DNA of 32,527 nucleotides from Thermosipho sp. (in: thermotogales). GTDB taxonomy: Bacteria > Thermotogota > Thermotogae > Thermotogales > Fervidobacteriaceae. A program made the translations under genes and the position numbers. Position 1 is the stretch's first letter; the number at the start of each line of letters is the position of its first letter. The stretch lies in the NCBI GenBank assembly GCA_030153605.1, contig JASKLO010000018.1, forward strand, positions 1 to 32,527, given 5' to 3'. The notes beneath the pieces were generated by a model. That model worked only from the letters and a program-made list of their open reading frames with translations, had not been told where the DNA came from and searched no databases. Shown in pieces: positions 26,798 to 32,527 of the stretch.

Positions 26798-28099
26798 TTA
26801 AATTTTTAAAATAGTCTTTATATCTTCCTCAGGATCTCCTATAAGTTTCAAATCATAATTTGTTTGAAGAACTTTAAGAATATCTTCATTAACCCATGCA
26901 GGAAGTACAGGACCCAAATAAATCCCTTTAACACCAAGTGCAAGTAATGTCCAGAGTATTGCAACTGCCTTTTGTTCCATCCAAGTAAGGATAAGTGAAA
27001 GTGGTAATTCATTTATTCCAACTCCAAACAACTTAGAAAGTGCTTCAGCAATTTCAATAGCCACTATCGTATCATTACATTGTCCAACATCAATAAGTCT
27101 TGGAATACCATCAATATCACCTAAATCAAGATCGTTTATTCTAAACTTGCCACACGCAAGTGTAAGCACAACTGTATCTTTAGGAAGTTTTTCAACAAAC
27201 TCTCTGTAGTATGAACCCTTATTTGTTGGTGTATCACAACCTCCTACTACAAAGAAATGTCTTATTTTTCCTTTTTCCACATATTCTTTTATTTTATCGG
27301 CAAGTGAAAGAATTACACCTGTCGAGTAACCAGTAACCAATTTATAATTTCCTTTTTTCTCTTCTAACTTTGGTAAACTTTTTGCTTTTTCTATAACTTC
27401 TGTATAATCATACCCTTCAATATGTTTAACACCTGGAAGTTTTGCTATTGAGGTTGTAAACATTCTATCTTTATATGATTCCTTTGGAATGAGTACACAA
27501 TTACTTGTTCCAAGAATTGCTGCTGGGATTTCATCAAAAAGTTTTCTTTGATCAAACCATGCTTTACCTAGATTTCCGGCTAAATTCTTATATTTTCTAA
27601 GTCCAGGATAACCATGTGCAGGAAGCATTTCTGAATGCGTATAAACATATACGTCTGTTCCTTCAACTTGTTTTAACAATTCTTCAAGAGCTTTTAAATT
27701 GTGTCCAGTTACAATAATTGCATGTCCTTCTTTCGTACCAGTTTCAACCTCTGTTGGTGTAGGTTCTCCATACGTTTCTATATGTGCTTTTTTCAAAAGT
27801 TGCATAACTTTGTAATTCATCATACCAGCTTCAAGAGCAAGCTGTACAAGATTTTCTCCATCGAAATTTACATTTGTAAGAGTTGTATATAATCCTTTTC
27901 CTAAATATGCCGCTATCTCTTCATCAACATATCCAAGTTCTCGAGCATGATAATAATATGCAGAAATTCCTTTAAGTATATAAACTAAATTATCTTGTAA
28001 TCTATCAACTGTAGGACTTTTGCCACAAACTCCTGTAACTGTACAACCTTCTCCATTCATCGCTTGAGAACATTGATAACAAAACATATTAAATCCCAT
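26798..28099 (-). CDS. hcp: Hybrid cluster protein (short, class III type)
   Basis: 433 residues, cytoplasmic. The N-terminal cluster Cys are C7, C10, C19 and C25 (CYQCSQ...[11 protein letters not shown]). Hybrid-cluster ligands lie in [25 protein letters not shown] and [13 protein letters not shown], and the GQCNDTIVA segment is also typical. It is about 110-120 residues shorter than class I and II proteins, as in thermophile class III Hcp. Hcp reduces hydroxylamine in vitro and acts on NO in vivo; the role here is by family. GGAGG lies 7 bases before the ATG. Its promoter has a regulator palindrome at -41.5. Confidence 0.95.
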
Positions 28100-28133
28100 A
28101 GTTTCACCTCCATGTACTTTATTTCACAATTTT

Positions 28134-28175
28134 ATTTTAAAAAGCTTTTTCTTTTTTGTCTGTAACATAGGTTAC
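28134..28175 (-). promoter_or_regulatory. hcp promoter with Crp/Fnr-type operator
   Basis: On the minus strand GTAAC-CTAT-GTTAC (28162-28175) is a perfect 5+5 palindrome. A -10-like TAAAAT is at 28134-28139, giving transcription start near 28127. The palindrome centre then falls at -41.5, the class II activator position. There is no TGn before the -10 and no -35 consensus, as expected for an activator-dependent promoter. Confidence 0.7.
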
Positions 28176-28319
28176 GAATCATGTTTGTTGTTCTAAAATT
28201 GCTTATCTACCAGATATTTCTTTCAGATTAACAAAGCATATTCAAGAATAAAATTTATAAGAATTAATTTTTACTCACTTTTAAATCTATTCAACATTGA
28301 TAGCAAAAAGTATATATGC

Positions 28320-28797
28320 TAAAATGAGGTTGGAAATAGGGAAAAGATCCACACAAAAATACAATGTAAAAAGGTAATATAGTAAGTATTGTTAGCACTT
28401 AACTTTCGTGCTTAAAGTTCTTGAAAAAATGTAGAATATTAATGATAAAACAGGTGATTATTATTGCTACTTTGCAAGGAAACACAAATACAAAAGCTAA
28501 TTTTGTAGTGTACAAGAAAGAATCTATGTAAACAATAAAAAATTCGCGTGGCAAAGTTTTATTGCGGAATACTAATTATATTTGTTGAAAATAAAATTAC
28601 CTCCTGGTACTAGACATGAATTTATATAAGGATTGTTATGTAAAAACCTGGCTTTAACTTATTTAAAATCTAGTTATCTTGGATATGGTGTATCAATCCA
28701 AATTGACTTAATTGAAAATTCAGGAAAAATACTTTATTATCTGCTAAAAATATTCCTATCATTTTAGATTCAAATATTTCTGACCTTGTTAATATGT
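28320..28797 (+). pseudogene. Possible decayed coding sequence in a gene-poor gap
   Basis: The gap 28100-28875 has no intact gene, but coding-like stretches appear on the plus strand in shifting frames. They include MIKQVIIIATLQGNTNTKAN (28442 on), VNNKKFAWQSFIAEY (28528 on), and a longer run from about 28590 with one stop, containing KLPPGTRHEF, KNLALTYLKSSYLGYGVSIQ and IPIILDSNISDLVNM (ending near 28797). I do not recognise the parent gene. No ribosome site precedes any piece. The call rests on non-random residue patterns only. Confidence 0.3.
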
Positions 28798-28875
28798 AAG
28801 GAACCATACTTTAAAAAACCGAAATTAATAATTAATAAATTAAGTTACTATTTATAAGTATCTTATTTTATAAAA

Positions 28876-30486
28876 TTAAATTTCCACAATTTTATTACAG
28901 GTCTTTTCTAAAAATATCTTTGAATGTGACACAATTAAAATTATAGAATTTTTCGATTTTAACGATATTAGTTCTCTCAACTTTTCTGTTTTCTTAATAT
29001 CCAAATGAGTTGTTGGTTCATCTAAAAGATATAAATCCTTATTTTTTTGCACAAAAGCTCTAACGATAGCTATTCTCTGGAGTTCTCCACCCGAAAGGTT
29101 ACGCCCTCCTTCCTCTACTTCTCTTTCTAATGAAAGATCATCCAAAAATTCCAGTAACATCTTATCTAATTTTCCATTATCACCTAAAAATATATTCTCT
29201 TTCACAGTCCCTTTAAAAACAACTGGATGTTGAGGAACATAGCAAATTCTACGATAATACGAATCAAGCTCAAGTTCTCTCAAAGGTATATTGTTTATTT
29301 TTACATAATTTTCATTACCTCCTAAAAAACCAAGAATAACCTTAATTATTGTACTTTTACCTCCTCCACTTTTCCCAAATAATCCTATAATTTCTCCCTT
29401 CTTTGCCTCTAATTTAACATTTTTAAGCAACTCTCCAACCCCTTCATATGAAAAGCTAGGAACTCTTACTTTTATTGAATCAATTTTATTTTTTAAGGGT
29501 TGTTTAAATCTACTTTCCTGGTTCTCCCTTTGAGTATCATCTAATACTTCTGACAATCTTCTAAACACAACTTTTACTTCTTGGCGATGAATGTTAAAAT
29601 CCCAAAAATTTTTCGATGAATCATAAAGATAATTTACTACCATTAATATTGCTACTAAATCTCCGGCTTGCATTACTCCATTTTTTATATAATATGCCCC
29701 CATAAGAATTGCGATAATATAACCACTATTAAATAGTATTGCAAGAGGTATATTAAATAATACAATCGATTTTATCCTTTTTACATCTGATTTAACATAC
29801 CTCATATTAAATTCTTTAAATTTTGCTATAGAAAATTTCTCTTTGAGGTAAACTCTAAACATTTCCATTCCTTCGATATACTCTTTAAGTCTGCTTACAA
29901 ATTCAGTTTGAGTTTCTATAGTTTTATAAGTCAATTCTCTCACAATTGGATTTATGTAACGGATTAGGACTAAAAATGCAAATAATGGAAGAATTGATAT
30001 TAAAATTGTTATAGTATTTAAAAAAAACCCTAATATTAAAGCAAAACCAAACGTGAGCAGATCTTTCAAAAAAAACACAAAAGTAGGGTAGAAAAAAGTC
30101 TGTAACCTTTCTGTATCTGAACTAATATAGGTAAGTATTCTTCCTGATTCATAAAAGGAAAATTGATTATAATTGTTTTGTATAACCTCAAATAACAACT
30201 TTCTTAGAGAAGCAGAAAAAATTCTCATCCTAGTTTCAAAAAGATAATACGAAATATATATTAAAAATTCTTTTAACAAACTCAAAAATAAAAACAAAAA
30301 TACATAAATTTTGAACGAAAAAACAGCAGATTTTAGATTAAAAATAGAGTTAATAAGTTTTTTAGAAAGCAATGGGATAGGTATGGTTAATCCTGTAGCC
30401 ATAATGAGCAGTAAAAAAGCAAAAATTAAATATAAAATATGATCTTTAAAAAGGCTTAAAATCCGCTTTTCAACTCTGCTTTTCAT
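28876..30486 (-). CDS. ABC exporter, fused membrane and ATPase domains
   Basis: A 536-residue half-transporter. About six membrane helices occupy residues 15-300, then the nucleotide-binding domain: Walker A GKSGGGKST (371-379), Q-loop YVPQHP, signature LSGGELQRIAIVRAF (464-478), Walker B LYLLDEP (D489, E490) and H-loop H521. There is no N-terminal C39 peptidase, so any leader peptide would be cut by another enzyme. The ATG lies inside the end of the radical SAM gene (17-base overlap) with GGTGGAG upstream, so the two are coupled. The context suggests export of, or immunity to, a modified peptide. No clear terminator follows. Confidence 0.9.
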   Translation of the reverse strand: MKSRVEKRILSLFKDHILYLIFAFLLLIMATGLTIPIPLLSKKLINSIFNLKSAVFSFKIYVFLFLFLSLLKEFLIYISYYLFETRMRIFSASLRKLLFEVIQNNYNQFSFYESGRILTYISSDTERLQTFFYPTFVFFLKDLLTFGFALILGFFLNTITILISILPLFAFLVLIRYINPIVRELTYKTIETQTEFVSRLKEYIEGMEMFRVYLKEKFSIAKFKEFNMRYVKSDVKRIKSIVLFNIPLAILFNSGYIIAILMGAYYIKNGVMQAGDLVAILMVVNYLYDSSKNFWDFNIHRQEVKVVFRRLSEVLDDTQRENQESRFKQPLKNKIDSIKVRVPSFSYEGVGELLKNVKLEAKKGEIIGLFGKSGGGKSTIIKVILGFLGGNENYVKINNIPLRELELDSYYRRICYVPQHPVVFKGTVKENIFLGDNGKLDKMLLEFLDDLSLEREVEEGGRNLSGGELQRIAIVRAFVQKNKDLYLLDEPTTHLDIKKTEKLRELISLKSKNSIILIVSHSKIFLEKTCNKIVEI

Positions 30487-31609
30487 ATTTCTCCACCAAC
30501 CTCAAAACTTCTTTAGAATAAAGTAAATCAATAGGAACAGGAGGATTAAGTTCATAGTTGGCAAGTTCCCATAAAATTGTAAAAACACTTTTAATAAATA
30601 TATCACATACTAAACTTTCTGCTTTTGCCTCAACAAAACTCTTACCCGAAAGCAATTCAACAGCACGACAACCGCCTCCACATAACAATTTTATAGGACA
30701 TTCAGGACAAATCTTTTCAACAACCGGAGTCCCGATTCCCGTACGTGTTTTGAACTTTTTAATGATTTCTTTTAGATTTTTATATTCTGATATGTGGCAT
30801 ATTTTAAATCTATCATTTATCAATTCACTACATGGATAAAAATAACCATCCGAAGCTAAAGATAATTGATTATATAAGGCCGAACAATTATGCCTTGTTA
30901 TTCTTCTTAAAAGCCGTAATTTGATTTCTTCTACAAAATAGATTTTAATTTTATTATAATGAAAAGAATAATATATAAGAAATTGATATAAATCAGTTAA
31001 TTTTTTCGAATCTGGAATTATATCATTTGATTTAGCTCTACCATATCTTTCTATAATAGGAAAATGAATAGAATTAACTTCCACTAATTCCGCTTTTTTT
31101 ATAAAATCTACAACTTCAGCTTTATTATAAGAATGTATAGTATAGCTAAGCGCAACATCAACACCTATTTCTTTTAATTTAACAATGTTTTTCATTAGTT
31201 TCTCAAAGTCTCCTCCACGAATTCTCTTATAGGTTTCTCTTCTTGCAGCATCTACACTTATTTGAACATTAAATCGTGAGCTTCTCAATAAATCTTCAAT
31301 TAAATTTATCATTAGGCCATTTGTTAACAAAAAAATTCTAGCATTTGTTTTTTCTAACACTTCTTCTAAAAATTTTCTTAAGTGTCGCCAGATTAAGGGT
31401 TCTCCACCTCCGATGGTTATATTTTCGATATTATTTTCATTAACAAAATCAATTATTAATGGTATGTACTTTTCATCAAGTGCCACAAAATGTTTATTGG
31501 GCCCTGATTCATAAAAGCAATGTAAACACTTTAAATTACACTCAAATGTTGGCAAAATTGACATACCTATAAAATTATTCTCAGATAAATTATTTGTTAA
31601 ATTTTCCAA
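30470..31609 (-). CDS. Radical SAM/SPASM peptide maturase, main frame
   Basis: 379 residues from the TTG at 31607-31609. The radical SAM cluster is C24-x3-C28-x2-C31 (FECNLKCLHC), followed by ENITIGGGEPLIWRHL, the GGEP-type SAM site. The C-terminal SPASM region carries a first Cys group (NCSALYN, DGYFYPCSEL, KICHI) and then CPECPIKLLCGGGCRA with a final Cys in LVCDIF. This matches enzymes that modify ribosomal peptides or proteins. The TTG has no good ribosome site. The frame stays open 25 codons further upstream, to a TGA at 31691-31693, and appears to continue a short ATG frame by a -1 shift (next entry). Overlaps the exporter gene. Confidence 0.85.
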   Translation of the reverse strand: MENLTNNLSENNFIGMSILPTFECNLKCLHCFYESGPNKHFVALDEKYIPLIIDFVNENNIENITIGGGEPLIWRHLRKFLEEVLEKTNARIFLLTNGLMINLIEDLLRSSRFNVQISVDAARRETYKRIRGGDFEKLMKNIVKLKEIGVDVALSYTIHSYNKAEVVDFIKKAELVEVNSIHFPIIERYGRAKSNDIIPDSKKLTDLYQFLIYYSFHYNKIKIYFVEEIKLRLLRRITRHNCSALYNQLSLASDGYFYPCSELINDRFKICHISEYKNLKEIIKKFKTRTGIGTPVVEKICPECPIKLLCGGGCRAVELLSGKSFVEAKAESLVCDIFIKSVFTILWELANYELNPPVPIDLLYSKEVLRLVEKYEKQS

Positions 31610-31674
31610 TCTATTATCTTCTGTGTCCTCTGATTCAAAAATCTCTATTAAAAAACGATCATCATTACTACAAC

Positions 31675-31770
31675 TTAACGAGAGTTTTTTTCACCAATTA
31701 TCCATTTAAGCGTAACAGAATCAAAGCATAAACAGTAATTATCTTTTTGATCTGCAAAAAAACGCTTCAT
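31675..31770 (-). CDS. Short ATG frame before the maturase; probable N-terminus joined by -1 frameshift
   Basis: This 31-codon frame starts with an ideal AAAGGAGG site 6-7 bases from the ATG and reads MKRFFADQKDNYCLCFDSVT and onward to IIGEKNSR, then TAA. Near its end the bases read A AAA AAC in phase (31684-31690), the classic -1 slippery heptamer. A -1 shift there enters the maturase frame and continues LSLSCSNDDRFLIEIFE, giving a 433-residue protein with no other start needed. Alternatives are an A7-versus-A8 indel (sequencing error or phase variation), or a separate 31-residue Cys peptide translated before the maturase. Confidence 0.6.
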   Translation of the reverse strand: MKRFFADQKDNYCLCFDSVTLKWIIGEKNSR

Positions 31771-31810
31771 TATCTTCCTCCTTTCTTCAAACCGCTTGAT
31801 AAAGCAATCA

Positions 31811-31930
31811 TCAAACAAACTTCACATTTACAAAAGCAAACTTTTTATAATCACAGTTTAGCATTAATTCATTGCTCAATTTAAAAAAGTAAGAAGGTGC
31901 AGGGCAAAATATTATTAAAATTCGTACCAT
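31811..31930 (-). CDS. Possible 39-residue hydrophobic peptide frame
   Basis: ATG at 31928-31930, reading MVRILIIFCPAPSYFF, then KLSNELMLNCDYKKF, to TGA at 31811. It has two Cys and lies just upstream of the maturase. No ribosome site precedes it, and part of it is read from one arm of the 20-base inverted repeat, so it may be chance. Confidence 0.2.
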   Translation of the reverse strand: MVRILIIFCPAPSYFFKLSNELMLNCDYKKFAFVNVKFV

Positions 31931-32104
31931 CAATTAATGAATTTGATGATTTTAGTGTGCAAAATACGAACAGTGTGCGCTTGAAAGAGAACAATTTATC
32001 CTAGAAGGTGTAATTTTTAATGCTTTAACTTTTATATCAGACCATTTTAAAAATATCTTCATAACGATCCCCCCTATTTTTTGCATTTTACCCTGCACCT
32101 TCTT
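31891..32104. repeat. 20-base inverted repeat enclosing a 174-base segment
   Basis: AAGAAGGTGCAGGGCAAAAT at 31891-31910 recurs inverted at 32085-32104 with 19 of 20 bases matching (C to T). The arms enclose the 36-residue peptide frame. No direct target repeat is seen immediately outside. It could be a small non-autonomous element, a recombination site, or a shared protein-binding site. Confidence 0.6.
31952..32062 (-). CDS. Candidate 36-residue precursor peptide
   Basis: The ATG at 32060-32062 is preceded by AGGGGGG, 6 bases away, a usable ribosome site. The product begins MKIFLKWSDIKVKALKIT, then PSRINCSLSSAHCSYFAH. The N-terminal half is basic and amphipathic, as a leader would be. The C-terminal half is Ser/Cys/His/Tyr-rich with two Cys seven apart. 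An in-frame ATG at 32084-32086, behind an AAGGTG, would add eight residues. Position (about 180 bases before a radical SAM/SPASM maturase, same strand) suggests a modified-peptide precursor. This is inference from context; I recognise no family. Confidence 0.4.
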   Translation of the reverse strand: MKIFLKWSDIKVKALKITPSRINCSLSSAHCSYFAH

Positions 32105-32295
32105 TCAATACGCAACTACAAAAATCATCATCACAATATCTATCTTATTGTTGAACTTCATACCATACATGTTTATTTCTAAACTTCTACAAAAGAATTC
32201 CCATTTATTTCATTATATTTGTTATTTTTTTAACAAACTTTATATCAGTTTATTAATTTTTAATATTATTAAGAAATCTTCCCTTTCTTCGATCT

Positions 32296-32527
32296 TCAAT
32301 TATTTCCATTTTTATCAAAAAGAGAATCTTTTCTTGACAATAGTTTTATAACACCATGAAATGTTATAAGCAATTTTTTAGTATTTTCAATATTAATATT
32401 TAGTAACACATTTTTAATTTTATCTACGGTTTTGTTTAAATACAACTCTAATTTTCTGGATTTTTCTTTTTTTTTTTTTTCTTTAACAATGAATATTTTA
32501 TAAATTCTTAATATTTTATAAATTTTC
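32296..32527 (-). CDS. Possible C-terminal end of an unidentified gene (5' partial)
   Basis: On the minus strand a frame is open from the window edge to TGA at 32296-32298, about 76 codons. It is Lys/Ile/Leu-rich, passes through an A14 run, and reads KLELYLNKTVDKIKNVLL, then ITFHGVIKLLSRKDSLFDK near its end. The second half looks helical and protein-like. The first half is low complexity and includes a 15-base direct repeat. Not recognised; it could be chance in such A+T-rich DNA. I see no other gene in 32105-32295. Confidence 0.3.
   Translation of the reverse strand, partial: KIYKILRIYKIFIVKEKKKKEKSRKLELYLNKTVDKIKNVLLNINIENTKKLLITFHGVIKLLSRKDSLFDKNGNN

Follow-up and report, generated by a model that had tools for sequence, protein, structure and literature searches.

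A candidate radical SAM-modified peptide locus in an accessory island of a Thermotogales genome

Does a group of minus-strand genes near the end of a Thermotogales contig encode a small peptide together with the radical SAM enzyme that modifies it and the transporter that exports it, and is the enzyme gene still whole? The stretch of DNA that we analyzed (the window, 32,527 nt) is the entire contig C4 of a 1.69-Mb genome in 56 contigs. An earlier sequence-only reading had proposed a radical SAM-modified peptide system with an ABC exporter, and short Cys-containing peptide genes upstream; the enzyme ORF was listed from a TTG codon. The proposed kind of system is still the best reading, whereas one of the two peptides (P1) and the enzyme start had to be given up. 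From sequence comparison, we estimate at roughly 0.8 the probability of an accessory radical SAM RiPP-type locus in which P2 would be the precursor, followed by a radical SAM/SPASM maturase and ABC export.

Gene order and the start of the maturase gene

Read downward from 32062, the genes follow in the order P2, P1, radical SAM enzyme, ABC exporter. Both upstream Cys-containing frames are present as first described, and motifs and coordinates bear out a SPASM maturase overlapping an ABC exporter by 17 bases (30470–30486). No protease or immunity gene was seen in the window, where the contig ends at 32527, and Rfam returned no match within 28000–32527.

Table 1. Coordinates of the features of the locus in the window.
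Feature	Position	Strand	Remarks
P2, candidate precursor gene	31952-32062	(-)	36 aa, MKIFLKWSDIKVKALKITPSRINCSLSSAHCSYFAH
P1, maturase N-terminal 27-31 codons, frame 0	31675-31770	(-)	AGGAGG site; TAA after A7 run
A7C run, heptamer A AAA AAC at 31690-31684	31684-31691	(-)	site of -1 frame move
Radical SAM/SPASM maturase ORF from TTG	30470-31609	(-)	379 aa
ABC exporter, membrane + ATPase domains fused	28876-30486	(-)	536 aa
Inverted-repeat 5' arm around P2	32085-32104	(-)	20 nt, 95% complementary to 31891-31910
Inverted-repeat 3' arm around P2	31891-31910	(-)	then T6
Island left boundary, intergenic beside hcp	28177-28336	(.)	direct repeat, 91%, at C41 end

Numbered from the TTG codon, the maturase carries the radical SAM motif CxxxCxxC at Cys24, Cys28, and Cys31 and all seven Cys of a SPASM domain (C242, C260, C271, C301xxC304x5C310x3C314, C335), both kept in the orthologue described below, and it matches the Pfam Radical_SAM profile at E 7e-24. 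The motifs of the ABC exporter are complete (Walker A, LSGGE signature, Walker B, H-loop). Because this protein begins directly with its membrane part, it has no N-terminal peptidase domain.

Among 103 genomes of the phylum, we found one other full orthologue of the maturase, 66% identical over 377 residues, in a genome of the same order and another family (G082). Intact ABC homologues of 538 and 540 aa are encoded in G082 and G014, respectively. No close homologue was found outside Thermotogales in genome contigs, viral sequences, plasmids, and 390 relatives; the contig scans rely on a few short patterns, so this absence is weak evidence. Matches of 29 to 32% (family f3; G088 and G097–G099) were rejected, three of the four (L030, L031, and L033) being judged a different enzyme in housekeeping surroundings.

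The G082 maturase is a continuous gene of 432 aa that begins MQRFFKDIKSDYCLCFDSDTLRWIIVDKRSALKCKN. P1, translated as MKRFFADQKDNYCLCFDSVTLKWIIGEKNSR, aligns without gaps to its residues 1 to 27 (pN 0.18, pS 0.80). The maturase therefore truly starts at 31770 and not at the TTG at 31609, and the same ungapped match rules out P1 as a second precursor gene; of the two short frames taken for peptide genes, P2 keeps that role. An out-of-frame enzyme N-terminus with a good ribosome site is thus a trap that mimics a short Cys peptide gene. With the G082 maturase as query, homology continued upstream of the TTG in the maturase frame to 31690, a limit that comes directly after a TGA in that frame (31693–31691). 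Given this stop, the frame move must fall in 31690–31675.

Frame offset, decayed copies, and genomic setting

In the window, the maturase frame is offset by −1 at the A7 run; the same region is in-frame in G082. The gene may be damaged or recoded: the offset would imply slippage for full-length enzyme, a recent loss of function, or an assembly that is one base short. We compared about 760 kb of the congener G016 with a sample of the window assembly and found no frameshift candidate in 178 orthologous genes, which span 179 kb and contain 223 A7/T7 and 35 A8/T8 runs. Planted deletions were detected in 53 of 60 cases inside genes and in 33 of 60 near codon 30. An assembly slip is therefore an unlikely cause of the offset, with the lower recovery near codon 30 weakening the screen there.

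The alternative that survives best, to which we give somewhat less than even odds, is that the cluster is decaying, the A7 offset being a true loss-of-function indel and the strain making no modified peptide. Decay fits the RiPP reading for the family and conflicts with it for this strain only. Besides the lack of other frameshifts in the sampled assembly, which argues against a sequencing slip, decay is plausible because broken copies are usual in relatives. The G014 copy has several stops in the maturase and an intact ABC gene; in G019, a maturase tail remains and the ABC gene is interrupted by an IS-like ORF. The G015 copy, in what we take to be T. melanesiensis, is a deletion scar in which the first (N-terminal) half of P2 is joined directly to a maturase fragment. 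The joint lies within AATTGTTC, a sequence common to P2 and the maturase gene of the window, which indicates that a deletion between short repeats removed the intervening DNA, and the fusion implies an ancestor there with the same pair of genes. Against decay in the window, all else is intact, including P2, every catalytic Cys, and every ABC motif, and the lower recovery of planted lesions near codon 30 (33 of 60) leaves room for an assembly error.

Synthesis of the maturase by −1 recoding, through either a ribosomal frameshift at A AAA AAC or slippage during transcription, is unlikely. The slippery heptamer is in the phase of a programmed −1 frameshift (frame 0 codons AAA AAC) and is shortly followed by a frame 0 stop, but this heptamer arises automatically when a run of eight A becomes one base shorter. 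The run is not conserved in relatives, the G082 gene being continuous without it, and we found neither a terminator-like hairpin downstream of the heptamer nor, by eye, a Shine–Dalgarno-like stimulator 10 to 14 nt upstream.

The locus forms an accessory island that separates genes which are neighbours in two congeners, G016 and G017. There, a 412-aa gene comes immediately after hcp (window 26798–28099), and the homology of the window to these genomes ends at 28336 and 28178. In the window genome, the 412-aa gene is on contig C41, 575 nt from the contig end, where the intergenic stretch of about 160 bp beside hcp is repeated (L153). The adjacency in congeners and the direct repeat together indicate an insertion, on the assumption that the ends of C4 and C41 face each other. 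This duplication around the island is a possible integration footprint. The island has a G+C content of 0.27 versus 0.315, lower in part because intergenic DNA is included.

G019 carries a second peptide-modification cluster immediately upstream of its decayed copy (L026 2191–4398), with a YcaO cyclodehydratase of 735 aa and an MFS transporter. G015 has another candidate radical SAM peptide locus (L027 7192–9633), with a fragment of a PapB-like SPASM enzyme and a 70-aa Cys-rich ORF (...EACLTPGDGDGLCGGEDTVICEMIPEPCSTDFCGYGNPPIIY). Short ORFs with signal peptides (MRKALLVIF...FADRTDADNETH...) are found upstream of the G082 locus (L040 7814–8179) and near the decayed copy of G014 (L025 7728–7832); the window has no counterpart of them. 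A family of about 530 aa (L040 8318–9922), found in 58 of the 103 Thermotogota genomes and often multicopy, is encoded divergently from the loci in G082 and G014 and is missing from the window genome. Its T. maritima member matches TPR and Cro/C1 HTH domains and is thus perhaps a peptide-responsive regulator. Upstream of P2, window positions 32206–32527 share up to 87% identity with G015, which belongs to a different genus, and contain a possible 49-codon coding frame (MYLNKTVDKIKNVLLNINI...) with a similar frame in G015; the contig ends there.

P2 as candidate substrate and the stem around it

In G082, an ORF that immediately precedes the maturase orthologue, translated as MKILLKWSDVKKLIFKVTAARVNCSLSAAHCSYFVH, matches P2 at 67% over 36 of 36 residues (E 2e-13). 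The sequence-only reading had proposed looking for a short frame conserved beside homologous maturases, and P2 is such a frame beside the only intact homologue. The two versions differ with pN 0.21 and pS 0.89, values like those of the enzymes, and this bias of changes to synonymous sites indicates that P2 is under purifying selection. Because P2 is conserved over its full length, adjoins a maturase that is itself conserved, and appears to be under purifying selection, it is likely the precursor peptide of the maturase. Weak matches to P2 in G001, G003, and G005 (E 0.02–0.1) were discarded; the one in G005 lies inside a helicase-like gene. Conservation is concentrated in residues 1 to 9 and 23 to 36, from which we infer a leader of about residues 1 to 22 and a core of about residues 23 to 36. 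Only two Cys are present, at positions 24 and 31, and both are conserved; P2 is thus not of the SCIFF/freyrasin ranthipeptide type, with six Cys in about 45 residues.

As we envisage the pathway, P2 would be translated into a 36-residue precursor, the putative leader of which (MKIxLKWSD...) would be recognized by the maturase. The radical SAM/SPASM enzyme would then modify the C-terminal part (NCSLSxAHCSYFxH, the presumed core with the two conserved Cys), most likely by forming one or two thioether cross-links at Cys. Export of the product would fall to the ABC protein, and a protease encoded elsewhere would remove the leader. The product may serve as a bacteriocin or a signal.

P2 is enclosed by an inverted repeat whose arms pair over 20 nt, the sole mismatch being a G-U pair in RNA. 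None of 2000 shuffles and one of 2000 random places in a genome sample matched the score of this stem, and its predicted RNA fold has a z of −4.3. In G082, arms at the same position (GAAGGGTGGGGG/CCCCCACCCTTC) give a stem whose score was matched by 3 of 2000 shuffles and 2 of 2000 places (z −2.7). Comparison of the two by eye found inner pairs changed on both sides (C-G to G-C, A-U to G-C), which indicates that the pairing is kept rather than the sequence. A T6 tract follows within about 10 nt of the 3′ arm in both. With two sequences to judge from, the stem may act as a stabiliser or a leaky terminator, tipping expression toward the precursor relative to the enzyme. It is improbable that this conserved stem around the precursor gene is coupled to −1 recoding at A AAA AAC as a limit on maturase level; if true, such an arrangement would represent a new two-Cys thermophile peptide family and a new way of setting the precursor-to-enzyme ratio.

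The top NCBIfam profiles for the maturase are the peptide maturases StsB (85.2 bits, cut-off 625) and PapB (77.8 bits, cut-off 340), both under cut-off, and AlbA scored 64.6 bits against a cut-off of 850. The maturase reaches none of the NCBIfam equivalog cut-offs, which leaves membership in the sactipeptides (StsB, AlbA type) or the ranthipeptides (PapB) unsupported. Profiles of MoaA and sulfatase maturases score almost level with those of the peptide maturases. With the window protein as query, the nearest PDB structures were 5wgg, which we take to be CteB, and 6efn (SkfB), followed by the sulfatase-maturating enzyme AnSME; with a two-sequence profile as query, AnSME ranked first. On the question of a RiPP recognition element, no Pfam profile matched the first 68 residues of the maturase in G082. 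Given the near-equal scores of sulfatase maturase and MoaA, the enzyme sequence alone leaves a peptide substrate unfixed, and it is the gene context that points to one. These scores would also suit an enzyme whose substrate is a larger protein or a molecule other than a peptide, which we consider improbable in an operon that has no sulfatase or cofactor gene and whose conserved neighbour is a short Cys peptide. Slightly less probable still is that P2 acts as an attenuator, a regulatory leader peptide for the operon, and not as a substrate: it does lie within a long stem in both genomes, but its conserved residues are grouped at the two ends, with two Cys among them and no single-codon run, and the operon holds no other candidate substrate.

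The RiPP reading thus rests on the joint conservation of P2 and maturase in G082 (67% and 66%), on the radical SAM, full SPASM, and ABC exporter motifs, on the remnant of P2 and maturase fused in G015, on the identity of P1 with the maturase N-terminus, and on the nearest structures (CteB and SkfB) and best profiles (StsB and PapB, under cut-off). As in radical SAM RiPP loci, a short conserved candidate precursor, an enzyme with radical SAM core and SPASM, and a dedicated exporter gene, with export as its predicted function, stand together. Counting against this reading, the sulfatase maturase and MoaA profiles score nearly as high, G082 holds the one full orthologous locus known, neither a protease nor an immunity gene was seen, and the frame offset may mean a dying locus. 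Overall, the locus is a genuine and fairly ordinary radical SAM RiPP-type locus.

Comparison with known systems

The locus had been likened to the TM1316 locus of Thermotoga maritima (Frock et al. 2013, as cited in PMC13157175 and PMC11594946), a likeness that holds for architecture and fails for orthology. Both loci combine a short Cys peptide, a radical SAM enzyme with SPASM, and ABC exporters, and the TPR/HTH proteins of the TM1316 locus have relatives next to the copies of the window locus in G082 and G014. However, the radical SAM enzymes are 26% identical over 104 residues only, the ABC proteins are 25% identical, the 31-aa peptide (MQKMPKPVVPNDYLNPGKGCGGAGLVCGWCG) is unrelated to P2, and the hicAB genes of the TM1316 locus are absent from the window locus. 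From position and the hicAB pair, we take G090 to be T. maritima and its 31-aa ORF to be TM1316. No maturase match was found in G090 at E 1e-20, and TM1316-type orthology is thereby lacking. In G090 (L107 13355–13510), the 31-aa Cys peptide is followed by a strong GC-rich hairpin and then the radical SAM gene; a hairpin around the peptide as a common theme was rejected, since 1517 of 2000 random places score equally.

A putative sactipeptide cluster was predicted earlier at Tmel_0409 of Thermosipho melanesiensis (PMC4289311). Like the window locus, this cluster belongs to the same order and has a radical SAM/SPASM enzyme adjoining transport genes, but it is probably a different enzyme. By position, Tmel_0409 is probably the 446-aa enzyme at G015:C1:431402-432397, which is 29% identical to the window maturase and falls outside its family.

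With the SkfB, CteB, PapB, and StsB systems, the locus shares a radical SAM enzyme with SPASM, a short Cys-containing precursor, and an ABC exporter. It differs from them in an enzyme far under every curated cut-off, an N-terminal extension of only about 65 aa ahead of CxxxCxxC, and a P2 core that holds two Cys only. The few peptide-modification loci known in Thermotogales gain one that has its own maturase and a small precursor family (36 aa, two Cys) that annotation has probably overlooked, and G082 offers an apparently intact partner locus for heterologous tests.
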